IMG/VR virus record: IMGVR_UViG_3300023175_000149
Span: 1-29,367 of that record
Length of the DNA stretch: 29,367 nt
Source of the DNA: a virus
Direction: 5' to 3' (one strand)
A program made the translations under genes and the position numbers. Shown here in pieces: positions 386 to 26,600 of this stretch. Below the pieces are notes generated by a model. It ran no database searches and was not told where the DNA came from. It was given only the letters and a program-made list of their open reading frames with translations. The stretch's first letter is position 1. Each line of letters opens with the position of its first letter.

Positions 386-393
386 TATTTATT
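386..393 (-). promoter_or_regulatory. T4-type late promoter for gp17
   Basis: On the minus strand this reads AATAAATA, close to the T4 late consensus TATAAATA recognised by the gp55 late sigma factor. It ends 4 nt before the gp17 ATG and overlaps the stop codon of the radical SAM gene. With T4 spacing the transcript would begin at the ATG itself. Confidence 0.6.
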
Positions 394-1555
394 CCAAGGT
401 TCTTAGGTCAAGTTTTGTTTTTGTTGGCGTTGCTGTCATTAGATAACGCTTAGGCGGTTTATCAAACAATTGCATATTTTTGTTTTTCCAAGCATTACGC
501 CTAATAATTTGATTTAAAAAATTTGTAGTTCCACCAGGTACAAAATAACTCCAAGGACCTGAGATTAAATTTTCCATATCAATGTCGTATTCATCGCACC
601 ACTGTATTAATCTAATAGTATGAGGTCCTAGTTTAACCATTATATGATATAAATTGTTATCACTGTTTTCCATTAATCTAAAAGGTATATTTCTTTTATC
701 ACACCAATCTTTAAATAGATTAAAAATGTCACTTAAATATAATCTTTCTTGACCAATATTTCTTCCGATATCACTACCATACCTAATTCTATAATGCCAA
801 GGCTTCCAATTTTTAGTTGTTATTTCAGTAAGTATGTCATCCATTTCTTGTAGTGTTGACATAGTATAACTAATGTATCCTACATTTATTCTATTTTTTA
901 ATAAATTTTCTATACCAGTTTCTTGCTTTTTTCTAATAGTAGAATTATTGATATATGATGGATGATTAAGTCCTACTAGCACACTTGTGACTTTTGCATT
1001 TTTTACAGCGTTAACAAATTTCATATCTGCAAACTTTATACCATTTGTCATAATATCAATGTGTATAGCAGGATTATACTCATGTACTGCTTGAATTAAT
1101 TCTGTAAAGTTTTTGTGTAAAGTTGATTCAGCGCCAGCAAAACAAACAGTCCAACCTTTCTTTTGTAGTGTAGGACTTAGTTGTTTATCAATAATTTTAA
1201 TTTGATTTAATAGTGTGTCTACTGTAGGATCTTTAATTTTGTTATTGGGTATATGATAACAATGAGGACAATCTAAATTACATTTGTCACTTACTTCAAT
1301 CATTACATAATCGTTAAAATGATAAGACTGATAACTGCAATTTAAACTCTTGTAAAATTCATAATCATTTTCAATTACGTATCTATGTGTGCCGTGTTCT
1401 TCACAATGTTTTACCATGTAAAGTTTATTGTCAATTTCATACTTTAATGCAGGAACGTGTTTATAACATTCGTGACATATAGATACTGTTTCTTCTAATG
1501 GATTGTTTACTTGTGAATATAGATAGTCTATATGTTCTGCTGAAAAATAACTCAT
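389..1555 (-). CDS. Radical SAM protein with MJ0619/Tes-like N-terminal domain
   Basis: A 388-aa radical S-adenosylmethionine enzyme. The [4Fe-4S]-binding CxxxCxxC motif is C92-C96-C99 (KCNLDCPHCY), and FAGAEST at 139-145 stands where the GGE SAM-binding motif is expected. The N-terminus has a second Cys/His set (C27, C30, C51, H54) in a context of the type SICxECxKxxPA...VKxCxEHG. That is typical of the MJ0619/tetraether-lipid-synthase (Tes) group, where it precedes the radical SAM barrel. The substrate cannot be read from sequence. Transfer or modification of a methyl, lipid or cofactor group are all open. The gene sits between two packaging genes but has its own late-like promoter and an upstream terminator, which is the layout of an inserted cassette. 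Spot counts of three 60-base lines in the gene give 15, 15 and 21 G+C, against 23 in a neighbouring line, so it may be more AT-rich than its surroundings. Confidence 0.85.
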   Translation of the reverse strand: MSYFSAEHIDYLYSQVNNPLEETVSICHECYKHVPALKYEIDNKLYMVKHCEEHGTHRYVIENDYEFYKSLNCSYQSYHFNDYVMIEVSDKCNLDCPHCYHIPNNKIKDPTVDTLLNQIKIIDKQLSPTLQKKGWTVCFAGAESTLHKNFTELIQAVHEYNPAIHIDIMTNGIKFADMKFVNAVKNAKVTSVLVGLNHPSYINNSTIRKKQETGIENLLKNRINVGYISYTMSTLQEMDDILTEITTKNWKPWHYRIRYGSDIGRNIGQERLYLSDIFNLFKDWCDKRNIPFRLMENSDNNLYHIMVKLGPHTIRLIQWCDEYDIDMENLISGPWSYFVPGGTTNFLNQIIRRNAWKNKNMQLFDKPPKRYLMTATPTKTKLDLRTLE

Positions 1556-9217: not shown

Positions 9218-9233
9218 TTAACTACGTAGTTAA
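9218..9233. repeat. 16-bp perfect palindrome at the kinase stop codon
   Basis: TTAACTACGTAGTTAA is its own reverse complement and contains the TAG stop of the dNMP-kinase-like gene. As RNA it could form a 6-bp stem with an ACGT loop. It has no T-tract close behind it, so it may be a weak terminator, an mRNA end protector or a dimeric protein site. A weaker ACCG/CGGT stem followed by ATTTTT lies just downstream on the minus strand. Confidence 0.6.
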
Positions 9234-9725
9234 TTTAAATTTATACAGTTCGTCTACCCAAAACTCTAGGTCTTTAAGCGTACCATTGTTGTCAATATGA
9301 TAATCTGCCATCCAAGGTTTGAGGCTCATACTATCTTCAGATTCAGGAGGTAAGTAGTCGCTACGGTCAACCCAAACAGCATAATCAAACACACCAGCAA
9401 TTTTCATAGCATAAAATTCACGCTTGTTACGTAGTCCGCAATAGATATCGTGGGCTTTAAATATTTCTCTGCCTAACTTAGCAGCATCAGGAACATTGTA
9501 ATCACAAATAGCATTATACCATTCTGCTCGATGATTGTGTCTATCATTATAACACTCATCTTCGCTGTTATAATTGTATTTCTTTTTTAACATGTCATAG
9601 ATAAACAATTTAGAGCAGAACTGACTACTACTCTCAAAACTATAACCGTATTTGTCTCTAAGGATTTCACACACAGTGTCCTTGCCGTGACGACCATGTC
9701 CAATAATTAATAATTTTTTACGCAT
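9222..9725 (-). CDS. P-loop nucleotide kinase, dNMP-kinase-like
   Basis: A 167-aa P-loop protein with Walker A GHGRHGKDT at residues 9-17. The G-x4-GKD-T form is typical of deoxynucleoside monophosphate kinases such as T4 gp1. After it come FESSSQFCSKLFIYDMLKKK, RHNHRAEWYNAICDY and LGREIF, then FDYAVWVDRSDYLPPE, which gives the pattern of a small NMP kinase with a lid-like arginine-rich region. The protein is shorter than T4 gp1 (241 aa). The likely role is phosphorylation of dNMPs for phage DNA synthesis, an early or middle function. It sits among late structural genes and is preceded by a sigma70-like promoter rather than a late box. The ATG has no Shine-Dalgarno sequence. Confidence 0.75.
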   Translation of the reverse strand: MRKKLLIIGHGRHGKDTVCEILRDKYGYSFESSSQFCSKLFIYDMLKKKYNYNSEDECYNDRHNHRAEWYNAICDYNVPDAAKLGREIFKAHDIYCGLRNKREFYAMKIAGVFDYAVWVDRSDYLPPESEDSMSLKPWMADYHIDNNGTLKDLEFWVDELYKFKLTT

Positions 9726-10526: not shown

Positions 10527-10543
10527 AGGTGTTCTCCGTACAG

Positions 10544-10559
10544 TATTTATGCATAAATA
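10544..10559. promoter_or_regulatory. Palindromic divergent late promoter (gp13 / gp14)
   Basis: TATTTATGCATAAATA is a perfect 16-bp palindrome that reads CATAAATA on both strands. It is the only intergenic space (38 bp) between the divergent gp13 and gp14 genes. On the minus strand the box is 17 nt from the gp13 ATG, with GGAG between. On the plus strand it is 5 nt from the gp14 ATG, with no room for a leader. Confidence 0.75.
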
Positions 10560-10564
10560 TAACT

Positions 10565-11716
10565 ATGCCAAGACTTAGTTTATACAGACCAAACAAAACA
10601 CAGGATTATGAATTTTTAGACAAGATTGTCTATGAGCAATTCAGTGTAGGCGGAACTGACATACATGTTCACAAGTATTTAGGACCGTTAAATCCAGAAG
10701 AAGGAGATGCAACATCAGCAACTCCACAATATAATGCTGTGAGTGAAACAAACATACAAGATATGTTGTTTATGGAAAATAGAGATCGCAAGTATGATCC
10801 TGATGTATATACTATGCGTGGAATATACAACGTAAGCGATACTGATTTTAATCTAAGTCAGTTTGGATTGTTTTTACAAAATGATACATTGTTTATGACC
10901 ATACATATTAATAGCAGTGTTAAAACACTTGGCAGAAAAATAATGAGTGGAGATGTTATTGAATTTCCGCACCTAATGGATGAATATGCTCTAAACGATT
11001 ACAGTGTAGCATTAAAAAGATTTTATGTTGTTGAAGATGTAAATCGTGCAGCAGAAGGATTTAGTCAAACTTGGTATCCTCATTTATATAGAGTAAAATT
11101 AAAACAAATCATTGACAGTCAAGAATACAAAGAAATACTTGATTTACCTGCAGAAGATGAAGACGGAAATACACTTAGAGATATACTAAGTACATTTGAA
11201 AAAGAAATGCAAATTAATAATGCTGTGGTTGCACAAGCATATGATGATGCACCACTATCAGGTTATGATGTAAGTCATTATTATACATTGCAAGTTGACG
11301 AAAACGGTACACCAGAAATTCGTTCAGCAGAAACAGATGAAATTACAGCAGATGCAGACATGACTGCTGATAGAATAAATGCTAAACCTAGCAGAGCAGG
11401 TTATAAAGGTTACTTGCTTGGTGTAGGCAGTTTGAATGGTGAAGTGTTTGGTAGCGGTATAAGTTTTCCTACTGACAACGTTGTAGGCGATTACTTTTTA
11501 AGAACAGACTTTTTTCCAAATAGATTGTTTAAATATGACGGAGTTAAATGGACTAAAGTGCAAGATAGTGTAAGAGCAGAACTTTCGAATACAGATACAA
11601 AACGTACACAAGTTGCATCGTTTATAAACAACACAGCAACAAACGAAATTAGTGGTGAAACAGTGAATGAAAGACAATCGTTGTCAAAAGCACTTAAACC
11701 AAAGGCAGATAACTAA
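10565..11716 (+). CDS. 14: Neck protein gp14 with C-terminal extension
   Basis: A 383-aa partner of gp13 in the neck. The core FGLFLQNDTLFMTIHINSSV, then GDVIEFPHL, then WYPHLYRVKLKQIIDSQEYKEIL matches the T4 gp14 plan (F..FG...Q...TL.I....F, then GD.I.FP). T4 gp14 has 256 aa. The extra C-terminus holds a GDYFLRTDFFPNRLFKYDGV module and the ending RQSLSKALKPKADN, which I associate with marine T4-like gp14. I chose the ATG at 10565 over an in-frame GTG at 10529, because the GTG would lie inside the divergent promoter and the conserved start is MPRLSLYRP. The stop overlaps the gp15 start by one base. Confidence 0.85.
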   Translation: MPRLSLYRPNKTQDYEFLDKIVYEQFSVGGTDIHVHKYLGPLNPEEGDATSATPQYNAVSETNIQDMLFMENRDRKYDPDVYTMRGIYNVSDTDFNLSQFGLFLQNDTLFMTIHINSSVKTLGRKIMSGDVIEFPHLMDEYALNDYSVALKRFYVVEDVNRAAEGFSQTWYPHLYRVKLKQIIDSQEYKEILDLPAEDEDGNTLRDILSTFEKEMQINNAVVAQAYDDAPLSGYDVSHYYTLQVDENGTPEIRSAETDEITADADMTADRINAKPSRAGYKGYLLGVGSLNGEVFGSGISFPTDNVVGDYFLRTDFFPNRLFKYDGVKWTKVQDSVRAELSNTDTKRTQVASFINNTATNEISGETVNERQSLSKALKPKADN

Positions 11717-13197
11717 TGCAGTTTTTTTATGACGGACAAGTAAGAAAATATATTACTCAAATTGTTAGAATTATGAGTGGATTCAGTGTACAAGACGGAA
11801 ATGGTAATTTAAAATCTGTACCTGTAACATATGGCGATTTAACTAGACAAGTTGGCAATATTTTAAGAGACAACAGTGAAAACAAACTTCCGACTGTTCC
11901 TCGCATGAGTGTGTATGTTACTAACATTGAAATGGATAGAAGTCGTACAGGCGATGCAAGTTATGTTGATAAAGTTAATATTAGAGAACGTGCATTTGAC
12001 GAACAAAACAACGAGTATCTAAATACTCAAGGTAAAAACTATACAGTTGAAAGACTTTATCCAGCACCGTATACATTGAGTGTTAACGTAGATTTATGGG
12101 CAAGTAATACAGAACAAAAATTACAAATGCTAGAACAAATATTAGTTTTGTTCCGTCCTAGTTTAGAATTGCAAACAACAGACAACTATGTAGACTGGAC
12201 AAGTTTAACAGTATTACACATGACAGATGTAAGGTGGAGTAATAGAACTATTCCTATCGGTGTTGATTCAGAAATTGATATTGCAACAATGAGTTTTGAA
12301 ACACCAATATTTATTACGCCGCCTGCAAAAGTCAAAAAACTTGGAGTTATCACCAGTGTTATTGCTAACATGTGGGACGAAAACAAAGGAACTATTGACT
12401 TAGGATTAAGTAATCCAGAAATCAATGCATACGGCGACGATTTACCTCCGTTACAAACAACTAACCAAGAAGACGGTACTACCGACGATGGAAGACTTGA
12501 TACAATTACAAGGATCGATCCAATGCTTGGAAATAGAGCAACTAATGCAACAACATTTAGAGATTACGGAATCTATGTTGAAGGTAACATTGCAAGAGTA
12601 GTTGACAAAGACAACAAGGTAGGAACTATTAACTGGAGAAAAATTATAGAATCTTATCCAGGGCAATATAGAGCAGATGTAAGTGAAATTAGACTACGTA
12701 CAGACACAGGGTTTATTGTTGGAACATTTACACTTAATCCGTTGGATGAAAATCAAATCAGTGTTAATTGGGATGCTGATACATTGCCAAGTGGCGATGT
12801 TATCGACGGTCCAGCAAGATCTGTAAATAGTTGGACAAGTTTTGATAAAGTTATCGATCCACTTGTCTACAATCCAACAGCAGATAAAGTACCGGGATTT
12901 AGAGTATTAACACTAGGCGATATTAACAATAGTCAAAGTGTAGGCGACAGTGCATACGATGGTCCAGATGCCTGGAAAAATGCAGACGGCACTGATTTTG
13001 TTTGTGGAGCAAACGACTTGATAGAGTGGACTGGCACAAGTTGGGTAGTTGTCATGGATGCAACAGACAGCACCAATGGTATCAACAGTAAAAATCTTAA
13101 TACAAATATTATTTACAAATGGACTGGCGAGGAATGGTTACAAGCATACGAAGGTTACTATCCAGTTGGTACATGGGACATTTATCTTGATGCATAA
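11716..13197 (+). CDS. 15: Tail sheath stabiliser gp15 with C-terminal extension
   Basis: A 493-aa homologue of T4 gp15 (272 aa), which caps the tail sheath and tube and contacts the neck. The N-terminal 210 residues match the T4 plan: FFYDGQVRKYITQIVRIMSG, VPVTYGD, LPRMSVYVTNIE, APYTLSVNVDLWA, LQMLEQILVLFRPSLEL, then a conserved WTSLTVLHMTDVRWS and FETPIFITPPAKVK. The remaining 280 residues are an extension rich in D, N, T and W. It ends in repeated W modules (LIEWTGTSWVVVMDATD, IIYKWTGEEWLQAYEGYYP) like those in gp14 and in the sheath insert. It is translationally coupled to gp14 (TAATG). Confidence 0.83.
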   Translation: MQFFYDGQVRKYITQIVRIMSGFSVQDGNGNLKSVPVTYGDLTRQVGNILRDNSENKLPTVPRMSVYVTNIEMDRSRTGDASYVDKVNIRERAFDEQNNEYLNTQGKNYTVERLYPAPYTLSVNVDLWASNTEQKLQMLEQILVLFRPSLELQTTDNYVDWTSLTVLHMTDVRWSNRTIPIGVDSEIDIATMSFETPIFITPPAKVKKLGVITSVIANMWDENKGTIDLGLSNPEINAYGDDLPPLQTTNQEDGTTDDGRLDTITRIDPMLGNRATNATTFRDYGIYVEGNIARVVDKDNKVGTINWRKIIESYPGQYRADVSEIRLRTDTGFIVGTFTLNPLDENQISVNWDADTLPSGDVIDGPARSVNSWTSFDKVIDPLVYNPTADKVPGFRVLTLGDINNSQSVGDSAYDGPDAWKNADGTDFVCGANDLIEWTGTSWVVVMDATDSTNGINSKNLNTNIIYKWTGEEWLQAYEGYYPVGTWDIYLDA

Positions 13198-13205
13198 TTA
13201 TTTGT

Positions 13206-13637
13206 ATGAAGAAAATTATTTGTAGTGGTGCACTTTTTTATACATTAGATACTAATCGATTTTTACTTTTGCATAGAGCACAAAGTAAACAAAATAATGT
13301 TTGGGGATTAGTAGGCGGTACAAACGAAGATAGTGAAACTCCTTGGGAAGCATTGAAAAGAGAAATGCAAGAAGAAATAGGAACACTTCCATCTATTGTA
13401 AAAACTATTCCACTAGAAACTTTTATTAGCAACGATTCTCATTTTGAATTTCATACTTATTTGTGTGTTGTAAGCAAAGAATTTATTCCAGTATTAAACG
13501 ACGAACACAACGGTTATGCTTGGGTAAGTTTTAATAACTGGCCAAAACCACTACACAAAGGGTTGTTAAGTACATTGCGTAATAAGAATAATGTACAAAA
13601 ATTAGAAACTATCTTTAAACTTATTGAATTCATTTAA
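13206..13637 (+). CDS. Nudix hydrolase
   Basis: A 143-aa MutT/Nudix protein. The Nudix box G-x5-E-x7-RE-x-x-EE-x-G is complete: G38, E44, R52, E53, E56, E57 and G59. Only the final hydrophobic position is replaced, by T60. Family members cleave X-linked nucleoside diphosphates, such as oxidised dNTPs, NDP-sugars, dinucleoside polyphosphates or capped RNA; which of these applies cannot be read here. It follows gp15 by 8 bases with no clear ribosome-binding site and is probably transcribed with gp14-gp15. Its last 36 bases overlap the 3' end of the convergent glycosyltransferase-repeat gene. Nearby glycosyltransferases make an NDP-sugar substrate possible, but that is only a guess from position. 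Confidence 0.88.
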   Translation: MKKIICSGALFYTLDTNRFLLLHRAQSKQNNVWGLVGGTNEDSETPWEALKREMQEEIGTLPSIVKTIPLETFISNDSHFEFHTYLCVVSKEFIPVLNDEHNGYAWVSFNNWPKPLHKGLLSTLRNKNNVQKLETIFKLIEFI

Positions 13638-16600
13638 CAACCAGTTAAAGTCGTTGATTTTTCCAAGTTGATCTTTACTAGTTGCAGATTCACCATATTT
13701 TTTGCCTTGAATAGCACCATTGATTGCTGCAAGACCAAAAGGTTTATCTTTACCTCTTGTACACCAAACTTTTAACCTAAATTCAGTTTCTTCATCTAGT
13801 TGACCGTTAATTGCTTTACTCGACAGTTTAACACATTCTCTAAATGCACTACGCCATGCACTAAATTCGTCTGTATTAAATTTAGTAACGTTACTGATTC
13901 TATTTACAACTTTAAATGATTTACCAATGCTTGTTGTCATATCTGTAGTAGTTGTATCCATATTTAGTGTTAGTTCTCTAGGAAGCAATTTGACTGCACC
14001 GTAACCATAAATTAAACCATTAATTGGATTTTTGCTTTTCCAAACATGCACAGCATTTTTACTATCAGGATCATATGCAGGAACATAATAATCAAAATTA
14101 AAATTGTCAACAATTTCTGCATCTGCATCAACAATCCAAATCATATCTGTGTTGCAAAGTTTTGCTGCTGCAATGTGTGCATTATGAATACCTTCAACAC
14201 CGTGTACACGCTTTGCTCTTGGAAATCTTATTAACAAATCTTTGTAATTCTTGTCCGCATGTTCTTCGTCTTTGCTAATAAACACAATATCATATAATTT
14301 TGGAGTACTTGCAACAATATTATATTGTTTTTTATTTGTAAGAAATCTCATATTAATTTCACGTTCAGTAACATTGGCATGTTTACTCACAAGTGAAATG
14401 CCGTCCCATGCATCACCATTTTTAAAAACATGATGTGTCTTTCTTTCAAATATTTGATCATGTGTGAAATAAGTATTAAAATTAAATGAGTTATCTACAA
14501 CAACTTCGCTTGGTATCATCCAAAACATTTCTGTTTTTGATTTCTTAAATGCTTCTAAATAGTCTTGGTAATTTTTTATTTTAAATTTATCATATTCAAC
14601 AGGACCACTGGCAACAATATCCCATTCTTTACGATTTGCTATTGTTCTAAATTCAATTTCTTTTTGTGTAAGCGGTACATTTTTTGACAACAAAAATAAA
14701 CCATTGTAATGTTTTTTGCCATTAACTTCGTGCGCAAAAACATGATTTATATTTCTGTCATAAGTGTTATGATGACTAAAATAAAAATTAAAATCAAAGT
14801 CTTGTGCAATTTTTATATTATTAGTAGTAGCCCAAAACATTTCTGTTTTACTAGTTTCAAGAGCATTTAAATAATCATTATAAGTTTCTATAACAAATTT
14901 GCTAAATTGTTTAGGATAACTTGCTATGACATTGTGTTCTTTTTTGTTAACTAAAAATCTTGATTTTATTTCTTTCTCTGTTACCGGACTGTGTTTACTA
15001 AACAAAATTATTCCATCATAATTTTTATCATTTAAAAATACATGATTTGTAGTTCTTTCAAAAACTTGATCATGAGTAAAGTAATAATCAAATTCAAAAT
15101 TTATATCAACTTCTACATCACTAGGAATACCCCAAAACATTTCAGTCTTAGACGATTCTAATGCCATGTTATAATCTTTGTAATTATTAATTACAATTCT
15201 ATCATACCAAACAGGCCTACTTGCAACTATATTCCATTCTTTTGCATTAACAATATGTCTATGTTCTATTTCTTTTTGTGTAACTGGACTGTGTTTACTA
15301 AACAAAAATACTCCATTACGGTATTCTTTACCGTTAACTTTATGAATAAAGTTATGATTTATTTTTCTGTCATATTCGTTATCATGCGTAAAGTAATGAT
15401 CAAATGCAAAGTCTCTACAATCAATGTTTTCGCTATACCCATAAAACATTTCTGTTTCGCTGTTATCTAATGCACGAAGATAATCGTCATAAGTTTCAAT
15501 AATAAATCTTTCATAAAACACAGCAAAACTTGCCATTATGTCCCATTCTTTTGCATTTGCAATATGGCGATATTCAACTTCTTTTTTAGTTAAAGGTTTG
15601 TGTTTGCTGCAAAGAAACAATCCGTTGTAATATTCTTTTCCATCTACCATGTGTACAAAAGCATGATTTTCCTTTCGATCATATTCGTTTTCAAAATCAA
15701 AAGTCATTTTAAAATTAAAATCAGTTGTATCTATGTTTGGAGAATCCATCCAAAACATTTCAGTTTCACTGGTTTCTAATGCGTGTAAATAATCCTCATA
15801 CGTTTCAATATTGAAATGATCATATCTTTTATTTTTACTTACAATATTAGTGTGTTCTATGCGATTTACTGGATGCCTATATTCAACTTCTTTTTGTGTT
15901 AAAGGCGTGTGTACACTACACAAAATCATTCCATTAAATGATACACCTTCGTTGTTTTGATGTAAAAACACATGATTTTGTTTACGTAAATTTCTATCGT
16001 GATGACTAATATAAACATTATAAATGTCTGTAAGCATTTGAATGTTTGAACTACTCATCCAAAACAATTCGTTTGGTGTTTTCTTTAATGCTTCTAAGTA
16101 TTCATCATACGTGTCAATTTTGTACACAGGAAAGATTTTTGGATGGCTTGCAACAATATTCCATTCTTTCTTTTCAGCGTAAAATCTATAATCAACTTCA
16201 CGTTCAATTACTTCGACATTTTTACTAAACAGCACAATACCGTCGTATGTTTTACCATTAGCAAACACATGTGTAATATTTCTATCGTATGTGTTATGAT
16301 GTGTAAAATAAATGTCAAAATCAAAGTCATCTGAAACTTCAACATCATCGGGCACACCCCAGAACATTTCAGTAGTACTACGCTCCATTGCCAGTTTGTA
16401 ATCAGCGTAGTTGTTGATCACAAACTGATCAAACTTTTTTGGCCGGCTATATACCTCCGGGTGTTCTTTTTTGTTTGCAATAAATCTGTGATTAAATTCT
16501 TTTTCAGTTATAGGACTATGTTTACTAAACAGTACTACGCCATCATATTCATTATCATTTAAAAACACATGATTAATACGTCGATCATATTGATTATGAT

Positions 16601-17462
16601 GATCAAAATACAAATCTAAATCAACTACGTCTTGAACGTCCGTTGGAACATACCAAAACAACTCGCTTTCTTTTTCTAACGCTAACTGATATTCTTCAAA
16701 TGTTTCAAAGTTATACACAGGATATTTTTTAGGAGTACTTGCAATTAATGATACTGTTTTTTTATCTGCATAAAATCTGTGTTGTAATTCTTTGTCAGTA
16801 GGGTTGTATGCTTTTGGAAATAATGCAATACCATCAAACACTCCTACATTACCATTTCCAAACACATGCACAAATTTGTGACTCCAGTCATCAGGACGAT
16901 AACTAAATTTAAAAAACTTTCCCAATTCAATATCATTAGGCACAAGCCAAAACATATCCGTAGTAGACATGTCTTGTGCTTGTTTATGCGAACTAACAAC
17001 ACGAGCATGTGGAGCACGTTCTTGTATTTGTGTAAATAGTTCGTCTGTTTCTAAACCTAAATAAAATACATCAAACACATCTTTGCCACAATATACATCA
17101 TAGATTGCTGCAATATTTTTGTGTTCAATTACACCTGTATATTCAACTTTAGTAGGAATAAGTTTTGCATATTCCCAACTTTTAATTCTTTTGCTGCTTT
17201 TATAAACATACGGAAATACATGTTTTTTATTTAATTGTTCTTCGGTTGGTTTAAAGTGCCAAGGAAAAGTTCTAAGTACATTAATATTTTTGTTAACAAT
17301 CCAAACGTAATCTGCTTTATCAGCATATTGTGTTGCAACAGTCTCGTCGTCGCAATTGTCAGTATAATGTATTGGATAGATTTGTAAAAAATGATTTTTT
17401 AATACATCTTGTCCGTTGTATGTTTTTTGACCGTATCTTTCAAACTTTTCAAATATATTCAT
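13602..17462 (-). CDS. Giant repeat protein of degenerate glycosyltransferase-like units
   Basis: A 1286-aa protein built from about eleven units, each centred on a motif of the type TEMFWxxPxDxE. The centres lie near 17299, 16946, 16652, 16360, 16059, 15750, 15440, 15131, 14831, 14521 and 14134, giving a period of about 292-310 bp (98-103 aa) through the middle. Each middle unit reads roughly FDFDxYFTHHNxYDRxINHV, then YDGxxLFSKHxPVTxKEIxHR, then NxKEWxIVASxP and YxDYxxALExSxTEMFW. Only the last unit keeps a GT-A-type acidic motif, DMIWIVDADAEI. In the others DAD has become P.D or been lost. This suggests one possibly active glycosyltransferase domain and a stack of decayed copies used for binding or spacing. 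The start is ATG 17462, one base after the upstream stop. A TTG at 17498 is in frame but would overlap the upstream gene by 35 bases. Confidence 0.85.
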   Translation of the reverse strand: MNIFEKFERYGQKTYNGQDVLKNHFLQIYPIHYTDNCDDETVATQYADKADYVWIVNKNINVLRTFPWHFKPTEEQLNKKHVFPYVYKSSKRIKSWEYAKLIPTKVEYTGVIEHKNIAAIYDVYCGKDVFDVFYLGLETDELFTQIQERAPHARVVSSHKQAQDMSTTDMFWLVPNDIELGKFFKFSYRPDDWSHKFVHVFGNGNVGVFDGIALFPKAYNPTDKELQHRFYADKKTVSLIASTPKKYPVYNFETFEEYQLALEKESELFWYVPTDVQDVVDLDLYFDHHNQYDRRINHVFLNDNEYDGVVLFSKHSPITEKEFNHRFIANKKEHPEVYSRPKKFDQFVINNYADYKLAMERSTTEMFWGVPDDVEVSDDFDFDIYFTHHNTYDRNITHVFANGKTYDGIVLFSKNVEVIEREVDYRFYAEKKEWNIVASHPKIFPVYKIDTYDEYLEALKKTPNELFWMSSSNIQMLTDIYNVYISHHDRNLRKQNHVFLHQNNEGVSFNGMILCSVHTPLTQKEVEYRHPVNRIEHTNIVSKNKRYDHFNIETYEDYLHALETSETEMFWMDSPNIDTTDFNFKMTFDFENEYDRKENHAFVHMVDGKEYYNGLFLCSKHKPLTKKEVEYRHIANAKEWDIMASFAVFYERFIIETYDDYLRALDNSETEMFYGYSENIDCRDFAFDHYFTHDNEYDRKINHNFIHKVNGKEYRNGVFLFSKHSPVTQKEIEHRHIVNAKEWNIVASRPVWYDRIVINNYKDYNMALESSKTEMFWGIPSDVEVDINFEFDYYFTHDQVFERTTNHVFLNDKNYDGIILFSKHSPVTEKEIKSRFLVNKKEHNVIASYPKQFSKFVIETYNDYLNALETSKTEMFWATTNNIKIAQDFDFNFYFSHHNTYDRNINHVFAHEVNGKKHYNGLFLLSKNVPLTQKEIEFRTIANRKEWDIVASGPVEYDKFKIKNYQDYLEAFKKSKTEMFWMIPSEVVVDNSFNFNTYFTHDQIFERKTHHVFKNGDAWDGISLVSKHANVTEREINMRFLTNKKQYNIVASTPKLYDIVFISKDEEHADKNYKDLLIRFPRAKRVHGVEGIHNAHIAAAKLCNTDMIWIVDADAEIVDNFNFDYYVPAYDPDSKNAVHVWKSKNPINGLIYGYGAVKLLPRELTLNMDTTTTDMTTSIGKSFKVVNRISNVTKFNTDEFSAWRSAFRECVKLSSKAINGQLDEETEFRLKVWCTRGKDKPFGLAAINGAIQGKKYGESATSKDQLGKINDFNWLLNEFNKFKDSF
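14100..17310. repeat. Tandem ~300-bp coding repeats
   Basis: About eleven diverged tandem copies (period 292-310 bp in the centre, about 350-390 bp for the outer two intervals) inside the glycosyltransferase-repeat gene. Short blocks such as ACATTTC after CCAAA recur at nearly constant spacing. Divergence between copies is large at the DNA level, so the array is old rather than a fresh amplification. Confidence 0.85.
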
Positions 17463-17463
17463 T

Positions 17464-18057
17464 CTATAACCTAAATGACTTTGTACCGTAATGTGCAATT
17501 TCTTGGCTTAAACTTGCATCAACATACACATCAATTCCTGCATCGTTTGCACATTTACAAAAATATATATCTTCGCCTGACAAATCTTGTGTATCGTTAT
17601 TGTATAGATATGTATGCCAAGGTTTTCCTAAAACTTTATAGACTTCTGTTGAAACTAACATACATCCCATACCAACTGCAAACACTTTGTGTAAGTCGGT
17701 GATGGCAGATAATCTGTTATCTAAATTATCTGCATCAACAAATGCAGTACTTTTGTAAGGCGGAACTCTTGTGCTGTATGCTGCTGCTACAATATCTTTA
17801 TTGTGAGACAATAAGATTTCTGCGGTGTTAGACGGCAAATGCATATCACTGTCTAACCACAGTATATGTGTAGCACCCCAATCTAACGCTTCGTCTATTA
17901 GACTATTACGTTGTTGAGGTATTACTGTTCCTAGATTAAACAATACAGTGTGTTCAACATTATGTTCTGTAAGTTTACTTGTAATCTTAGAGAGACTTAA
18001 TGCAAATCCTGCATGAACTGTATCCCGTGATGGAATACAAATTGCAAGTTTTATCAT
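17464..18057 (-). CDS. GT2-like glycosyltransferase
   Basis: A 197-aa GT-A-fold protein. The opening LAICIPSRDTVHAGFALSL and the metal/nucleotide-sugar-binding motif WLDSDM (D69-S70-D71) are typical of family 2 glycosyltransferases in phages. GMGCMLVSTEV (about 129-139) and a later GEDIYFCKCANDAGI (about 161-175), with the ED acidic pair, match the acceptor side. It would transfer a sugar from an NDP-sugar to an unknown acceptor, possibly a virion protein, given the tail fibre and the repeat glycosyltransferase protein beside it. The start overlaps the stop of the 127-aa gene (ATGA), and the next gene starts one base after its stop, so three genes are tightly coupled. Confidence 0.85.
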   Translation of the reverse strand: MIKLAICIPSRDTVHAGFALSLSKITSKLTEHNVEHTVLFNLGTVIPQQRNSLIDEALDWGATHILWLDSDMHLPSNTAEILLSHNKDIVAAAYSTRVPPYKSTAFVDADNLDNRLSAITDLHKVFAVGMGCMLVSTEVYKVLGKPWHTYLYNNDTQDLSGEDIYFCKCANDAGIDVYVDASLSQEIAHYGTKSFRL

Positions 18058-18437
18058 GTAATTGTTTCAGAAATTGTGTCGTTTTTGATTGCTGTTTCTG
18101 CTGCAATAGTATACTGGTTCAAATCATTTGCACCTTGTACTGCAACTTTTACTGCTTCTTGAAAATCTTCAACACTGAGAGAAGACGCTGCTAACATGTT
18201 TTCTGGCTGTACTTTGCCAATAGTTAACAAGTCTGCACCCATAATACGTCCAATTTTTTGAACCCAATGATAACGTTCATCTGATTCTGGAATATCTAAT
18301 TCTGCAATCGCTGCACGTACTTCTTCTTCTAGTTCTGCACCTAATTCAGTTGCAAGTTTTTCTACTACTGCTAGTTTGCGTTCTTTGGTATATTCTTGTG
18401 CTAAGTCAATGTTCATGACTTCAAATAATGTTTTCAT
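18054..18437 (-). CDS. Helical protein of unknown function
   Basis: A 127-aa protein I do not recognise. It is nearly all helical by composition: an acidic N-terminal helix (KLATELGAELEEEVRAAIAELD, about 27-48), then RYHWVQKIGRIMGADLLTIGK (about 55-75) and VEDFQEAVKVAVQGANDLNQY (about 89-109). No signal peptide or membrane segment is seen. The start has a GGAG ribosome-binding site. It lies downstream of the tail fibre and the 53-aa gene and is coupled to the glycosyltransferase by an ATGA overlap. A fibre-assembly or chaperone role would fit the position, but there is no motif to support it. Confidence 0.7.
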   Translation of the reverse strand: MKTLFEVMNIDLAQEYTKERKLAVVEKLATELGAELEEEVRAAIAELDIPESDERYHWVQKIGRIMGADLLTIGKVQPENMLAASSLSVEDFQEAVKVAVQGANDLNQYTIAAETAIKNDTISETIT

Positions 18438-18662: not shown

Positions 18663-18664
18663 CG

Positions 18665-18691
18665 GTAAGAGCCGACAAAATCGGCTCTTAC
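18665..18691 (-). terminator. Hairpin terminator after the tail fibre
   Basis: A perfect 11-bp stem, GTAAGAGCCGA (18665-18675) with TCGGCTCTTAC (18681-18691), and a 5-base loop. It starts 6 bases beyond the fibre stop. There is no good T-tract on the minus strand, where the next bases are CGTTGACA and lead straight into the next promoter. It probably marks the end of the fibre transcript. Confidence 0.7.
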
Positions 18692-18697
18692 TATATC

Positions 18698-20038
18698 TTA
18701 TTTATCCAGTAGTTTTTGCACCATTGCTTTGAGTTCATCAATCTCTTTTTGCTGTTCTTTGATTGCTTCAATTAATACAGGCGCAATACGTTCGTATTTG
18801 ACTGTCAGATAATCTTCGCCGCTTTTGCTTTCGCCTGTATCAGTATCAATATCAAATGGTGCCGGAGCAACTGCTTCAGGCAATACTTCTTGAACTTCTT
18901 GAGCAAGTAAACCAACTTCACGTTTTTCAGTATCAACATCAAGTCCCCACTTGTGACCTTCGTTGGTCCAGTTATAAAGCACACCGTTCAATGCTTTGAC
19001 TTTGTCAAGTGCATTTGGAATGTTTTCGATGTTGGTTTTAAGTCTAGCATCTGATGAGTATGCTGTAACTTCGCCTGGGAATAGTGTATTACCATTATTA
19101 TCTAATATAGTTGCAGTTCTTACAAGTGTACCAGTTAATGGGGTACCTGGGCCGTACTGTCTATGATAATGCGGTTCGGCACTTGTACTCTGTCCATCAT
19201 CACCTGTTGAGATTTCCAAATAACCTGCGTTTGATGCAGTAGCAGCACCACCGAAGAACCACTGATCGTTGTCTCCCATTGTACCAGTAATACCGCGTTT
19301 AGCAGTACCGCTATTACTAAATGTAATGTTTGCTGTAGCAGCGTTTTCACCAGTTGTTCTTAACAGTCCAGTTAGTCCAACGCCACCGATACTATCAGCA
19401 GTAATGCCACTTAGTCCGCTACCATCGCCGCTATATCCAGCAGCCGTGATAGTACCAGTAATGTTAATGCTACCAGTACCACTTAGTGTACCACTAAACG
19501 AATCGTTAGAATCGCTGCGTAAGAAACTACTAGCGTGTATACCATCTACTAAGTCAGCATCTAGTCCTGATCCATTACCATCATTATTAGCATGCCAATA
19601 TTTGTAGAAGGTTGCACCATCGCTGGTATATCGAAGTTCACCTGTAGTAAACATAACAATGTTACCGCCACTAGCGGCGTGCATGTACATATCATAAGCA
19701 CCAAATATTGCATTACCTATGTAACCCATTGTTGCATCGTTTTGATCAGTAAAATACAGGTACGATGTAGCGTTTGCACCGGCACGATCGGAACGTTTTA
19801 ATGTAAGTGGTTGCGAACTTGTACTGCTTATAACGTAAGCACCTGTTAGTGTATCATTTGCGTCACTGCGTACAAAACTTAGACTGTCAACACCATCTAG
19901 TGTTGCTGCATCAACGCTGGTTAGGCCACTACCGTTACCAGTAAATGTATTTGTACCAATGTTGATATCGCCAAATCCGCTGGTAATCTGACCTGCATCT
20001 AGTGCACCGGTACCAGTAATACCTGTGTAACTACCTGT
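18698..20038 (-). CDS. Tail fibre C-terminal part with S74 self-cleaving chaperone (frameshifted)
   Basis: 446 in-frame codons that continue the giant fibre after a one-base frame break near 20038. The segment carries fibre repeats with G[ND]GSGL motifs and SFLRSD/SFVRSD, then a C-terminal peptidase-S74-type intramolecular chaperone domain. AYSSDARLKTNIENI (around 19030-19066) holds the self-cleavage site before SDARLK. It is followed by VGLLAQEVQEVLPEAV, YLTVKYERIAPVLIEAI and a final coiled coil KEQQKEIDELKAMVQKLL. Such domains trimerise the fibre, then cut themselves off. The first ATG in this frame is 19729, with no ribosome-binding site, so separate translation looks unlikely. Read with the upstream ORF it completes a single fibre gene. 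Confidence 0.85.
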   Translation of the reverse strand, partial: TGSYTGITGTGALDAGQITSGFGDINIGTNTFTGNGSGLTSVDAATLDGVDSLSFVRSDANDTLTGAYVISSTSSQPLTLKRSDRAGANATSYLYFTDQNDATMGYIGNAIFGAYDMYMHAASGGNIVMFTTGELRYTSDGATFYKYWHANNDGNGSGLDADLVDGIHASSFLRSDSNDSFSGTLSGTGSINITGTITAAGYSGDGSGLSGITADSIGGVGLTGLLRTTGENAATANITFSNSGTAKRGITGTMGDNDQWFFGGAATASNAGYLEISTGDDGQSTSAEPHYHRQYGPGTPLTGTLVRTATILDNNGNTLFPGEVTAYSSDARLKTNIENIPNALDKVKALNGVLYNWTNEGHKWGLDVDTEKREVGLLAQEVQEVLPEAVAPAPFDIDTDTGESKSGEDYLTVKYERIAPVLIEAIKEQQKEIDELKAMVQKLLDK

Positions 20039-20650
20039 ACTCTTGCACTTGGAACAGTTCCGCTACCCAAGTTAGTAGCATTTAGACTTGTTAGTCCGCT
20101 ACCATTACCGGTTGCAGTACCACCAAACACAATGTTTTTAACAACACTTAAACCACCGCTAAGTCTTACTGCACCGTTGCCTGTAGTAGTTGCTTCAGTT
20201 GTATCACTAAATGTTTTGATACCACCCATTGATTGGTTGCCACCAAGTCTTGCGCCTGCAACTGTACCAGTACTCAAGTTACTTGCATTTAGACTGCTCA
20301 GTCCGCTACCATTACCTGTAAATGTACTTGTTCCAATATTGATGTTGCCAAAGTTGCTTGTAATACTACCGCTATCAAGAGCACCAGTACCTGTGATATC
20401 ACCTTGGTGTTGTGTAACACTACCTGAAGTAATACGTGCATTTGGTACGCTGCCAGATGCAAGATTGCTTGCATTCAAGTTGCTTAAACCACTACCGTCA
20501 CCAGTAAAGATACTGCTACCAATGTTAATATTACCAAAGCCACTTGTGATACTACCTGCATTCAACGCACCTGTACCTGTGATACTTAACTGGTGTTGTG
20601 TAACACCTGATACTTGGATACGTGCATCCGGAATAGTACCGCTTGTTAAA
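19900..20650 (-). repeat. Imperfect ~180-bp fibre repeats around the frame break
   Basis: Copies encode TGTGALDxGxITSxFGxINIGxSxFTGxGSGLxxLNAxNLxSGTV with variable inserts such as TQHQ. The copies near 20340-20440 and 20520-20600 are intact. The copy at 19980-20040 carries the frame break and lacks the TQHQ segment. Confidence 0.75.
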
Positions 20651-23600
20651 TAACCAGCATCCATATCACCCATAAAGTTATCAGCAGCAACATCTTTTGC
20701 AACTCTTAGACCGCCGCTGATTTTAACTGCTGCTCCATCTGTTGCAAACGCTACTGCTATGTTTGCATTGTCAGTTGCTGTAAACCTTGTTAGATCGTTT
20801 GATGACAATGTAGTAAATGCACCTGTGCTTGGAGTATTTGGACCAATTGGAACATTATCAATATCGCTAATATACAAGTCACCGTCGATATACATATCAG
20901 CATTTGTTCTTAAATCCAAGCGCACAATTACTTCTGGATTAACTTGACCTGCTGCAACTGCTGCTGCTTTGGTTTCACCAATAGTCATTTGTCTTGCTGC
21001 TTGACCAAATGCAATGTTTGTTGCGTTATCTTTCAGCAAGTTAAATGTGCCTGTTTCGTCTGTATCTAATGTATTACCGTTTACAAACAAGTTACCTGCA
21101 AAGTTTGCTGTTGCGTTGTTAACACCAAAGTCACCTGTTGTTGCACCTATGTTAATATCTGTTGCTGCACCAAATGCATTTATTGTAGTTGCTGTAGCAT
21201 TTAACAAATTAAATGTAGCAGCGTTGGTTGTCAAATCGCCGCCGTCTATATTAACATCTAAGTCTACATCTAAATTGTTATGTACAGTTGTTGTACCTGT
21301 TGCTGCACCAATTGCAACTGCTGTTGCTGCACCACCAAAATTGATAGTTGTAGCAGTTGTGTCAAGCAAGTTGAATGTTGTTGTGCCTGCAACAATGCCT
21401 GTACTCATAGTTGGATTAGTTCCAAATACTAGAGCACCACTACCTGTTTCGTCACTCATAACACTTGCTAGTTGAGCACTTGTTGTAGAAGCAAACTGTC
21501 CAAGTCCTGATGTGCTTACAGCAACAGTACCGCTTGTTGGTAATGTTAAACTGGTGTTACCTGTTGTTGTTAATGACAACGTGTGCGCACCTGTATGTGT
21601 AAAGTTACCACCTAGTGTGATAGTTTTGCTACCATTGTTTACACCAGTACCACCGTATGTTGGAGATATAACTGTACCTTGCCATGTACCTGTACCAATT
21701 GTACCTACTTGTTGTAAACTTGAATTTACAACACCTGATCCTAGTGTAGTTGAACTTAGAACATTTGCATCGTTAACATAGTATGCTTTACCACTTGCTA
21801 GATTGAAGTCTTCGCTGCTATCCCAACTTGTGTTTGCTGCATCGTAAGTTAATGTTGCATTTGCGCCATCTACTTCAATACCTGCGCCGTTTGCTGCTGC
21901 TGCATTTAATGCACCACTTGCAACTACAATTCTCAAGTCATCAACTGTTAATGTTGTACTGTTAATTGTTGTTGTATCACCATTAACTGTAAGATCACCT
22001 GTAACAACAAGATCGTGTCCAATTGTAGTTGTACCGCCGCCATCGCCGCCTGTTCCAATGTTAACAATAGTTGCGCCTGCACCTATCACAACCGAACTTG
22101 GTGATGATAACAAGTAGAACGATGATTGGTTACTGTCTAGGTCACCGCCGTTGATGTCAACATCATGTGCAAATGTTGTTTTGCCTGTTGCTGCACCAAC
22201 GTTAATTGCTGTTGCTGCACCTGCAAAGTTGACAGTAGTTGCTGTATCATTTACAACATTTACAGTTGTTTGATCAGTACCAATGTCTCCTGAGAACACA
22301 ACTTCGCCACTGATATTAACTTTTCCGCTGGTATCAATACGCATACGTTCAGTACTTGTTTGTTTGATATCACCTGTAGTTCCAACTTCACCAGTCTTGA
22401 ACACAATGTCGCCACCTACGGCACTACCAGTACCAACACCTGCTTCGATAGACAATTCAGAACCGGCTACGTTAGTACCAACACCGTCAACGCCTTTGAG
22501 TGTTGAGTTAGTTGGTGTTGCACTGTGTTCTGCATCACCTAAAACAACTTTGGTATTTCTAATTACCATGTTGTTGTCAATGCTGATAGAACCTGCAACT
22601 ACGTCTGTAGGTAAAACAGTTACGTTACCGTCAGTTTGAACTGTAAACGATGTAGCATTAAATGTTGCACCAACAACTGGCCAACTACCATCTAAGTTGG
22701 TTTTTGTACTACCAGCAATGTTAATTGTGTCACCTTCTTTAACACCTAATGTATAAGGAGTGTATGTAAATGTTAGTGTTGTACCTGAGATAATAGTACC
22801 TGTGGTATCAGCACTGATGTAAACATACAAATCAGTAACACCAGTAACAGTTGTATTTGAAGGAATACTTGCACTACCTGTAACAAGCATACCAACTTGA
22901 ACTGCTGACGTATCTGCCATTGGAATTTCATTTTCACCGTTGGCAACAGCACCGTTTGTATCTTCTTCAATTTCTGCTAAGTTTACAGCAACGTTTTGAC
23001 TTGCTGATGATTCATAACCAGAAACAAATGTAAGTAGACTTCTAGTAGTACTAGCACTACCGATTTTAATGTTAGTAGCATCGCCGCCAATTTCTAAACT
23101 TGTTACATTTTCATTGTAAAGTTGTCCTGCACCTGTACTTGTTGAACTCAATTTAGCAGAACCAACATCCAAGCCTTCTGCAAGATCAAGTGCTGTACCC
23201 CATTCTGGTGTAGTACCATTTGATTTTAAGAAGTTGTTTGCTCTACCAATGTTTAGAGTGTTCAAACTACCAGTTGATTGTGCATAAAGTATGTCACCAA
23301 CTGCATATGTACTAATAGCAGTACCACCTCTATCAACTGGAACAAGACTTGTTAAGTTGGCAGGGTTTAGGAAGTATGCACTGTCAAGACCATCTACTGT
23401 ACCTGCATCAACAACACCGTCTTTGATGAATACTTCACCGCTTCCATCAGCGTTAACATCAAACTGTGTTTGTAGGAATCTTGCTGTACCTAGTGTTGAG
23501 AAAGTACCGCCGATGTTAAAGTCTGCGTTAGCAATACCAATATTAACTGGATCACCATAAAACTCTCCGTTTACGCTGTTACCAGTTAGTGTAATTGGGT

Positions 23601-26600
23601 TATCAGTAGTTGTTGCTTTCTTGATACTTTGTACAACTGTTTGATAACTACTGTCACCTCTCAAGAAACTATCACTGTTTGCAATACCTGCACTTGCAAG
23701 ACGTGATGGCGAAATTGTACCAGAAATAATGTTTTCTGCGTCAATGTTTGTAACAGCAAGTGTATTCCAGTTTGCTAACAATCTACTTGAAGTATTAATT
23801 ACTGTGTTAACTTGTACGTTGTTAGCAATAACTCTTGCACTACCAACACCAGTTGTTTCAAGGTCTTTGGCATTGGTTACCAGGTCATTGATACTGCTTA
23901 GTGCATCACTGCGCAAGTCGTGTAACGTAAACGAGTTGGTTGTAACACTACCGATAAAGAATCTGCTACCGCTGTCAATTGGTTCTGCATTAATGTCTGG
24001 TAGTGCATTAACAGTTGATCCGTCATCAAGACTTAGAATTCTTACAGCATCACCTGTTGTCAAACCATGACTTGGTACAACAATACTGTTGTCTGTAATG
24101 TTAACTGTGAAACGTGTAATGTTATGGTTGTTGTTTGCAGGAGTACTTGTAAACTCAACTTGGTTAAGCAATGCAAAACCTTCGTATAGTTCAATTGTAT
24201 CTGTATCAATAACTTTTACATAATAAACACTGCCATTTAACAATCCGCCAATAGCAACATTACCTAATGTGTTGTATGTTACAGGATCACCGTTGCTATA
24301 TCCGTGTCCAGTGATACTGATTCTGTATGCTGTATAATCAACTGCACCGCCAGATCCTGTAGTACCTGCTAAGAAGTTATGACTAATTTGGTTGTCTAAA
24401 CCAATATCGATAGCATTTTGCACTGCTACGTTATCTTCAACAAAGTCAACGCTCGATGTACTAGCAACGAACAACTCACCGCCTAAAATGTCAACATAAG
24501 CACGTTTTTCAACTGCACTTACTTCAATTTCAAAACCGCTACCTGAGCCGCCAACATCATTTGCATTACAACTTAACAAATCGCCTACTTCGTAGCCAAT
24601 ACCACCTCTGTCAATATCAACATCGGTAATCTGACCTGCTGTAACAGTAATGTTTGCTCTTGCACCAGTACCTGTACCAGTGTTTGCTGTTAATGAAACT
24701 GCTTTATAAACTTTAGTACCTAGTATAGGAGTGTAACTACTGCCTCCTGTTAAGTTAGCATTGTCTAAGTTTACTGCAATACCGTAACGTGTTTCTGTGA
24801 CTGCACCTTGAGCATTACCATCAGCACTAGTAACAATAGTGTTTGCTGTTGCATCTGTTACTGCTTTAGTTGTTTCGTCATCACCCACGTTTGCAATAGT
24901 AAATGTTACTGCGTTAGGAGTGCTTAAAACAACACCGTTTTGATTGTATGTTTCATCATCATTTACTTTAACTCTAACGTTATTGTCAACAAGTAAGTTG
25001 TGTGCACCGCTTGTGGTAATTGTTGCAATATCACTCGAACGAGATACTGCTGTAACTGTTGCACTTGTGAATACATATGTGTCATCAGGATCTAGTACCA
25101 AGAACTGGCTGCTGTTTGAACTTTTCAAGAACCAGTTGTCAACAATTTCTGTGTTAGCACCTTTACTTGAAATAGTTAATCCAGAATCTGAACCGTTAAC
25201 ATACAATGTACCTGAACTTACTTCCCATGGATCGCCGGTGCTGTCATCTGTTTCGTCCCATGCTGCTCCTTGTGTAACAACAATGATTGTGTTACTATTA
25301 AGAAAATCACCTTTTGCATAACCAATTGCGCCTGAAACACCAGGCTGTGTAATAAGATCACCATCAACTGCTGTAATATTACCGCTTAGTGTAAGTTCAA
25401 TTTGTTCATAGTTTTCAGTGGCAATATCACCTGCTTTTAAGTCAATAGCAGGAATATCATCAACTTGCACAAGACGTGATTGATAACCACTTGTGTTTGT
25501 GTTAGTGAACTGACGTGTTGCTGGAATTAAGTCTGCGTTCAACTGACCGTTAACGTTCAACTGAACAATAGCGCCCGGAACAGCCGCAGTTGACACAGTT
25601 TTGTCAACAAAGCCGCCGAGTCTGTTACTAATAAACTGACGTACTGCTAATTGTGTTGGAAGTCTTGAATTGCTCGGGCCACCAATTTCATCATCACCTA
25701 AGTTGACACTGGTTGAAATTTCTTCAATAGCAACATCAGAAAGACTTAGACGTAGTGCATCAAGTTCATCCACCTGAACTTTGTTACGGAATGTAATGTT
25801 ACCAGTTCTGTTGAACGCTGTAATAAAGTCACCAACTTTAAAGTCACCAAGTTCGTTTGTACCTGATGAGTACACACGCCCCGGTAGTTCTTCATACTGT
25901 TCGTATTCGCTTCTTGTGTTACCACCGTTCTGTGGTAGAGCGTTATAGTCTGTACCTGAACCTGCATATTCCCAAGTGTGTGCAGATGAGTTAACAATTG
26001 ACGGTCTGTGGAACCAACATGCTTTTTCAGGCAGTGCTGTCAAGTTTGTTAAACTTGAACTACCGTCTGTTGCAGTAATTGAGAATGTTGCTGTACCTAG
26101 TCCTAACTTGGTTGCTGCCTCGTTAACACCAACATTTGTATTAGGTGAAGCAGAATGGTCTTCGGTAATTGTACTAGTTTCATCAAATTGTACACGTAGT
26201 GTACTTGATCCAATTGTAACTTGTTCGATACTTACAACAAGTCTTCTATCTCTTGGTTCCCAACTATGAACAATAGCACTGTTGTTTAATGCTCCTGTTG
26301 TACCTGTAATTTGTCTACCTGGTACAAATTCATGATTTTCAGTTCCTGTTGCTAGGATAAGTGTCTGATAAGTTGTATGTGAACTTAAAATTTCTTCAAC
26401 ATAAAATTCAATAACACCTGATAAGAATTTCTGTGTACCAACACCTACGCCAAATACATTAACATCAAATTCTAATGAATCGTCATATGTTAGTGTAAAT
26501 TCGTCATCGTTGATGATTTTAACATAATAAGTTTGTTCAGGGTCAAGACCACCAACAACAGTACCGCTATCATTGTCGTAAATAATTTTTGTACCATTTG

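Follow-up and report, generated by a model that had tools for sequence, protein, structure and literature searches.

The window analysed here is the whole of the virus record IMGVR_UViG_3300023175_000149 from IMG/VR (29,367 nucleotides), and on its minus strand it encodes an array glycosyltransferase of 1,286 amino acids (positions 13602 to 17462, with the ATG at 17462 and the stop at 13602, as a preliminary description of this DNA had placed it), in which one catalytic-looking glycosyltransferase (GT) domain follows an array of units which stem from the fold of this domain and are non-catalytic. We regard this overall anatomy as very well supported. It is probable that the protein is an enzyme carrying a binding arm, and this reading has its strongest support in the DxD motif, which is invariant at one end of the protein and wholly absent from the conserved repeats. 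The best reading as a whole, that of a GT with a self-derived binding arm whose most likely target is the phage's own tail fibre, is put forward more tentatively.

The C-terminal GT domain (residues 1068-1298; 13605 to 14297, minus strand) was modelled with AlphaFold2 together with the last repeat (residues 951-1298, using 95 aligned rows), giving a mean predicted local distance difference test score (pLDDT) of 90.4 and a predicted template modelling score (pTM) of 0.84. Residue numbers for the protein follow a 1,298-residue form of the open reading frame (ORF) which begins at a TTG; this is the less likely start, and the ATG is preferred because 11 homologues with an aligned N-terminus start at, or no more than 3 residues from, its M. 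Comparison of the C-terminal model with the Protein Data Bank (PDB) by Foldseek yielded 103 chains at E <= 0.001, and the best 50 of these 103 were glycosyltransferases, which we take to be of the GT-A type, with ppGalNAc transferases leading and K4CP, SunS/ThuS, GtrB, RmlT and WrtF also represented. VIA-align matched the model to B4GALNT1 (Z 11.8, root mean square deviation (rmsd) 2.6 over 139 residues), to WrtF (Z 10.6), to the related IspD nucleotidyltransferases (Z about 10.7) and to hyaluronan and cellulose synthases (Z 9.4-9.8, rmsd about 4.5); identities in structural alignments with GT-A enzymes were 8-14 %. The prediction of a GT-A fold for the C-terminal unit, which is of high confidence, rests on the Foldseek E-values and on the VIA-align superposition of about 140 core residues. 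The DxD motif, D1124-A-D1126 (14121 to 14129, minus strand; D174 and D176 of the model), is found where the core strand 169-174 ends, which agrees with the GT-A-like fold that had been proposed from the letters. This motif was invariant in 95 of 95 aligned C-terminal or stand-alone GT domains, and we infer that the domain transfers sugar from a nucleotide sugar. By sequence there was no match above cut-off to a described GT family in Pfam, NCBIfam or the PDB, where a search with the GT domain profile returned no match. The best structural matches in BFVD, at 20 % identity, were A0A6J5LK21 (E 4.5e-22) and A0A6J5L5L5 (E 1.1e-21), both uncharacterised proteins of uncultured Caudovirales phages with no function annotated; the BFVD match list also includes a Che8 glycosyltransferase.

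The protein opens with a region faintly resembling a GT, continues with the degenerate GT-A unit u2 and eight repeats of about 100 residues, and ends in the GT domain. Ten TEMFW-type cores were found at spacings of 98, 98, 100, 103, 103, 103, 100, 104 and 128 residues (294-312 bp, with a final interval of 384 bp), so the eleven units at 292-310 bp of the preliminary description hold for ten units and for the middle intervals, but not for the last interval. Its eleventh, N-terminal unit (17154 to 17462, minus strand, limits approximate), whose core was placed by eye about 345 bp from the next, is plausible but weak as a GT-like unit, with hhalign probabilities of 24 % against the GT domain, 15 % against the repeats and 53 % against u2. 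In a subgroup of relatives (L017, L060, L033 and L034) this unit reads VDKD, which would be a second DxD-like motif, provided that the unit is GT-derived. Periodicity was pronounced in a self-comparison of the protein, where the offset of 103 residues gave 258 high-scoring windows and 50 shuffles never more than 17. A hidden Markov model (HMM) built from the eight middle repeats scored them, by construction, at 128-162 bits. On the minus strand, and named by the residues at the DxD position and by the two subtypes described below, these are repeat 1 (PTD, D-type; 16491 to 16778; 128 bits), repeat 2 (PDD, D-type; 16188 to 16487; 148 bits), repeat 3 (SSN, N-type; 15879 to 16187; 148 bits), repeat 4 (SPN, N-type; 15570 to 15878; 152 bits), repeat 5 (SEN, N-type; 15261 to 15569; 154 bits), repeat 6 (PSD, D-type; 14964 to 15260; 152 bits), repeat 7 (TNN, N-type; 14652 to 14960; 162 bits) and repeat 8 (PSE, D-type; 14349 to 14648; 145 bits), the last of which is the repeat included in the C-terminal model. 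Whole-protein matches in Pfam (TcpQ at E 0.003, CheR_N and others, all under cut-off) and in PHROGs (best E 0.04) were rejected as chance, and NCBIfam gave no match.

The repeats are relatives of the GT domain. A profile of 371 distinct full repeats from the family aligned by hhalign to the profile of 95 GT domains with a probability of 96.7 % and a score of 54.1, while 200 column-shuffled GT profiles reached at most 24.1 and the reversed profile 18.2; at the level of profiles this argues for shared descent of the middle repeats and the C-terminal GT-A domain. The model and the profile alignment place each repeat at the middle part of the GT-A domain, without the first strand and helix and without the helical C-terminus, so that the serial duplication of a GT-A-like domain suggested earlier stands for homology and for loss of the DxD, but what was multiplied is a part of the domain and not the whole. 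Unit u2 (16779 to 17090, minus strand) links the two because it retains the first strand and helix and matches both profiles (98.9 % for the GT domain and 99.4 % for the repeats), and in the array model it resembles GT-A structures at VIA-align Z up to 8.8 (B4GALNT1). The same stretch of u2 is missing in L013, L014, L016 and L030, in what appears to be an intermediate form. In the array model the repeats are strand-rich and a long strand crosses most unit borders; VIA-align on this model mainly probes u2 (model residues 124-247), and most of the Foldseek rows listed for it are GT-A or related nucleotidyltransferases, with a few that are not GT-A (TS-DHFR, FKRP). The GT-A origin of single middle repeats is accordingly drawn from the profiles and from the repeat in the C-terminal model.

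The acidic motif is missing from every repeat. None of the 371 distinct full repeats had a DxD (about three have gaps at those columns), the position being occupied by PxD in 111, SxN in 88, TxN in 44 and other pairs in the rest; these units differ by at least one residue, and many come from near-identical phages. They were counted as matches above 50 bits to the HMM of the window's eight repeats, a threshold at which very divergent units may be missed. The window protein itself has an intact DAD in its C-terminal unit alone, as had been noted, and its ten other units read NKN, PND, PTD, PDD, SSN, SPN, SEN, PSD, TNN and PSE, so that the "P.D or similar" reported for them applies to four of the ten while the other six read otherwise. 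Elsewhere in the repeat, R1, S14, Y30, F42, H73, G87, L90 and E101 are conserved at 97-100 % across the 371 units. Ratios of non-synonymous to synonymous substitution (dN/dS, Nei-Gojobori) in seven homologue pairs were 0.056-0.138 for the repeat region, taken from residue 216 up to the GT domain, while the GT domain itself gave 0.018-0.175; these values are rough, since synonymous sites are near saturation in three pairs. By these comparisons the repeats are under purifying selection, and the array is conserved rather than decaying, contrary to what its earlier description as degenerate implied.

Copy number varies greatly. Repeats were counted in 160 family ORFs clear of locus ends, with the window, single-domain paralogues and near-copies all included: 62 lack a full repeat, and the others have 1-10 or 15. 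The repeats fall into two subtypes, D-type (PxD with DG) and N-type (S/TxN with NG), and in the 371 repeats the two positions are coupled as D/D in 133 and N/N in 129. Members of the window's group place 8, 9, 10 or 15 repeats before the GT domain in the order DD-N(n)-DND (L021, which has 15, shows T and not N at one block position), and a related group (L017, L060, L033 and others) has 7 or 8 in the order DNNN(N)DDD. Judging by these orders, it is apparently the central block that varies in length, the ends being constant. Repeat-by-repeat best matches keep strict order in L014 only (8 of 8) and partial order in most others, such as L017, L023 and L061. A metal site in the D-type units, considered on the coupling of D48 and D86, is not claimed, as the coupling is indistinguishable from subtype ancestry.

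Several members depart from the usual layout. One repeat in L045 (7995-11375) is apparently fused from two part repeats, as if by an in-frame deletion relative to L034, and the arrays of L099 and L104 are spread over two overlapping ORFs. L068 (7986-9587) has two full GT domains in tandem, one from each clade of the tree described below, and no repeats. Additional C-terminal extensions occur on the array proteins of L096 and of L101 (6504-9809), the latter matching SCP2 sterol transfer at E 3e-6, and L073 (6969-8876), on a contig from a metagenome-assembled genome (MAG) labelled Oligoflexia, is a radical SAM-SPASM protein fused to a GT domain of the array family.

A first scan of IMG/VR gave 61 loci of the family, and a profile scan confirmed at least 593 of 600 candidate stretches, from which 80 loci were kept, single-domain relatives included. 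Ten family loci come from bacterial MAG contigs and are possibly binned phage DNA. The full array protein had no tblastn match at an E limit of 1e-5 in INPHARED (50,697 cultured-phage records, a search that may leave out records very near the window), the window's GT domain had none even at a limit of 10, and the GT domain of L062 gave four weak matches only, at chance level (E 5-7); the neighbouring 197-residue GT, used as a control, found 106 records. The tree of 95 GT domains divides into clades of 19 rows (18 stand-alone) and 76 rows (61 with full repeats), both at 100/100, and implies at least 4 gains or losses of full repeats; its midpoint root is for drawing only, its bootstrap is not fully settled and it has long branches. 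No paper on GT-A-derived repeat arrays was among the open-licence PMC papers that the literature searches listed.

The array gene sits in a run of minus-strand genes next to the tail fibre, and scans of PHROGs and Pfam confirmed the neighbouring GT and tail fibre that had been reported. The second glycosyltransferase, of the GT-A type and 197 residues (17464 to 18057, minus strand; phrog_1574, function unknown, E 1e-18), also matches two glycosyltransferase PHROGs at E 0.001-0.01 and Pfam Anp1 at 9e-6, under cut-off, and several of its relatives are annotated as glycosyltransferases. The array gene begins 1 nt past the stop of this gene, which in turn overlaps by 4 nt the gene of a 127-residue protein (18054 to 18437, minus strand; phrog_1409, E 2e-8), and by their coordinates the three look like one translationally coupled run. 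Upstream lies the giant tail fibre, split in the window into two minus-strand ORFs (18698-29367), namely a C-terminal part with an S74 chaperone (18698 to 19729; PF13884, 2e-19) and the main part (19999 to 29355); in the near-identical contig L012 (L161) it is one intact frame of 3,924 residues, and its composition includes 12 % Thr and 8 % Ser. At its 3' end the array gene overlaps by 36 bp a convergent Nudix hydrolase gene (13206 to 13637, plus strand; PF00293, 8e-18), beyond which is a gp15-like tail sheath stabiliser (11716 to 13197, plus strand; PF16724, 4e-21). This location between an S74 tail fibre and Nudix/gp15-like genes fits a gene of the host recognition cluster of T4-like aquatic phages.

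This arrangement recurs in the family. Gene order was compared across 148 family loci, among them the window itself, near-copies and many truncated loci. Of these, 81 have the Nudix gene; in 80 it is convergent and at +1, and the 81st is the window in mirror orientation. The gp15-like gene occupies +2 in 80 loci (again with the window as a mirrored 81st). Upstream, 50 loci carry the 197-residue GT at -1, 45 have the 127-residue gene at -2, and 35 show the fibre cluster at -3. An S74 fibre was found in 21 of 26 contigs tested, always upstream of the array gene and on the same strand, at 1.3-1.5 kb in 18 contigs and 2.3-3.3 kb in 3. The five without a match are L082, L088 and L107, in which the sequence upstream of the array gene is no longer than about 1 kb, and L061 and L133, whose contig sequence holds no Nudix/gp15 neighbours. 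The window's tail genes are nearest, among cultured phages, to those of the large myoviruses of the Phosso, Atu_ph07 and PA5oct group, and in Cassandra, a cultured phage of the same group, gp15, Nudix and one 202-residue gene are followed by the S74 fibre gene and the array is absent. Some distant members with few or no full repeats lie among genes for radical SAM/SPASM proteins (L138, L132), UDP-glucose dehydrogenase (L062) and an epimerase (L128; a label for neighbour cluster 14 that rests on one member, another having had no Pfam match), and some are partly beside Gly-rich, possibly fibre-like proteins (cluster 13 of a second lineage, called fibre on one Gly-rich domain match, another member having no PHROGs match). 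A "methyltransferase" label for neighbour cluster 16 had no Pfam support and was withdrawn, and from gene cluster 0, which mixes GT and radical SAM proteins, probably via the L073 fusion, only the anchor gene was used.

Elsewhere in the window are a radical SAM protein whose N-terminus carries an HMPTM-type zinc ribbon (389-1555, minus strand), a deoxynucleoside monophosphate kinase-like protein (9222-9725) and a gene (10529-11716) that is a candidate for the neck protein gp14. A 12-pair hairpin directly follows the fibre stop (18664-18692) and precedes a minus-strand promoter-like site (10 of 12, with TG); promoter-like and terminator-like sites were not above their frequency in shuffled sequence and were not used.

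In the function that we propose, a GT-A fold would have been duplicated serially and truncated, with loss of its metal site, to give an arm of non-catalytic units, behind which the C-terminal DxD domain would be the sole active transferase. The units may bind, without catalysis, an extended repetitive acceptor, either the Ser/Thr-rich tail fibre of about 3,900 residues or a growing glycan, and the arm would present successive acceptor sites to the single active domain, with array length tuning reach or processivity. The most likely end effect would be glycosylation of the phage's own tail fibre, jointly with the adjacent 197-residue GT. The context, with its second GT, its tail fibre and the sugar and radical SAM genes near some relatives, favours an enzyme. 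The fibre is preferred as acceptor for three reasons: it forms one block with a GT and the array gene, it stands near Nudix in the cultured relative that lacks the array, and it is long and has much Ser and Thr; for all that, it is a leading candidate to which we give slightly less than even confidence.

Several results weigh against this proposal. Pfam Glycos_transf_2 matched 8 of 18 members, with a best E of 0.016 that stays below cut-off, and the window protein scored 12.5 bits where 23.3 are required. Foldseek superposed the C-terminal model with large rmsd and low TM-scores (0.23-0.33, taken by query length). The array model (residues 13-1062) had a pLDDT of 83 and a pTM of 0.43, so that its arrangement of units is not reliable, and the best Foldseek E-value of the whole-array model was only 0.03. 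A relation of repeat number to fibre length, though suggested on inspection, was not significant (Spearman 0.52, P 0.10, n 11; by groups that we set ourselves, 0.40, n 5), in a test which left out nine contigs with a fibre frame running to the contig end (L101, L025, L017, L030, L083, L093, L108, L014 and L016), L097 (a 222-residue frame stopping short of the contig end) and the five contigs without S74, and which included a frame in L051 (2,206 residues) that may be broken. Finally, the authors of the pelagimyophage study PMC7029224 propose host O-chain modification for GTs that lie beside tail fibres in the host recognition cluster.

That last point bears on the main rival, a somewhat unlikely one in our estimate, in which the same enzyme anatomy acts on a host surface glycan (O-chain or capsule), changing the receptor in the infected cell and excluding other phages, with the array holding the growing polysaccharide. 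Relatives near UDP-glucose dehydrogenase (L062), epimerase (L128) and radical SAM genes (L138, L132) fit such a role, as do the polymerase K4CP in the Foldseek list and the hyaluronan and cellulose synthases in that of VIA-align. The window gene, however, lies between fibre and Nudix with one other GT, one 127-residue gene and no sugar-nucleotide gene, and a Pfam scan of the array protein, for which no prediction of membrane segments was made, detected neither a lipid-carrier domain nor a membrane domain.

It is improbable that the array protein is instead a virion adhesin derived from an enzyme, the units binding host glycans multivalently. Strong conservation of the repeats without catalysis, the varying copy number and the adjoining tail genes would suit an adhesin, but an adhesin does not need the invariant C-terminal DxD, members without full repeats and single-domain paralogues exist, and no fibre, S74 or receptor-binding domain was matched in the protein (none above cut-off in Pfam, none better than E 0.04 in PHROGs). 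Slightly less probable still is a structural spacer or oligomerisation scaffold without ligand binding, for which the conserved R, S, Y, H, G, L and E positions may be packing residues and the strand over most unit borders could be cited; the fixed subtype order DD-N(n)-DND and the coupled D/D and N/N pairs suggest more than this, though subtype ancestry alone could explain them. Glycosylation of modified bases in the phage DNA is very improbable, for although phage GTs of such kind exist (as an excerpt of PMC12619734 has it), the gene stands among tail-fibre and tail-completion genes and, apart from the kinase-like protein at 9222-9725, the scans of window proteins named none for replication or base modification.

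A transferase with its own binding arm has partial parallels. With the GT-A enzymes ppGalNAc-T, SunS/ThuS, WrtF, B4GALNT1 and K4CP the C-terminal domain has the GT-A core and DxD in common, and the array protein differs from them in an extra helical C-terminus and in the preceding array of non-catalytic half-GT-A repeats. The O-GlcNAc transferase OGT has a TPR repeat arm, which holds the acceptor, before one catalytic GT domain of the GT-B fold; the order of arm and single catalytic domain is alike, whereas here the catalytic domain is GT-A and the repeats are self-derived, with no TPR match in Pfam. Mycobacteriophage GTs that glycosylate virions are phage-encoded, as here, whereas here the target is a candidate only, and we know of no array in them. 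They are described by Freeman 2023, as cited in the excerpt of PMC12619734. According to the excerpt of PMC7029224, the host recognition cluster of pelagimyophages stretches from VrlC to the neck gene gp14 and contains GTs, radical SAM cassettes and tail fibres; it is similar in combining these genes in one hypervariable region by neck genes. It differs in that GT8 is the commonest family named and no repeat array is mentioned in that excerpt, and in that the window's nearest cultured tail genes are those of Atu_ph07, Phosso and PA5oct.

The array family is frequent in uncultured phage contigs and was not found in the cultured-phage records searched (INPHARED). In it an enzyme fold has clearly been cut back, deprived of its activity and copied many times to make a repeat arm, and members with 0 to 15 repeats let the route be studied. 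More speculatively, and with clearly less than even confidence, these proteins may form a new class of repeat protein with solenoid-like arms of truncated GT-A units, the dead units serving the single live domain as a ruler that reads a glycan or the fibre, and the two subtypes in fixed order, with a central block that expands or shrinks, letting the phage tune a glycan-coding machine through the number of repeats. Should tail fibres be decorated in this way, the family would make the glycosylation of phage receptor-binding proteins, a layer of host recognition about which little is known, directly testable.

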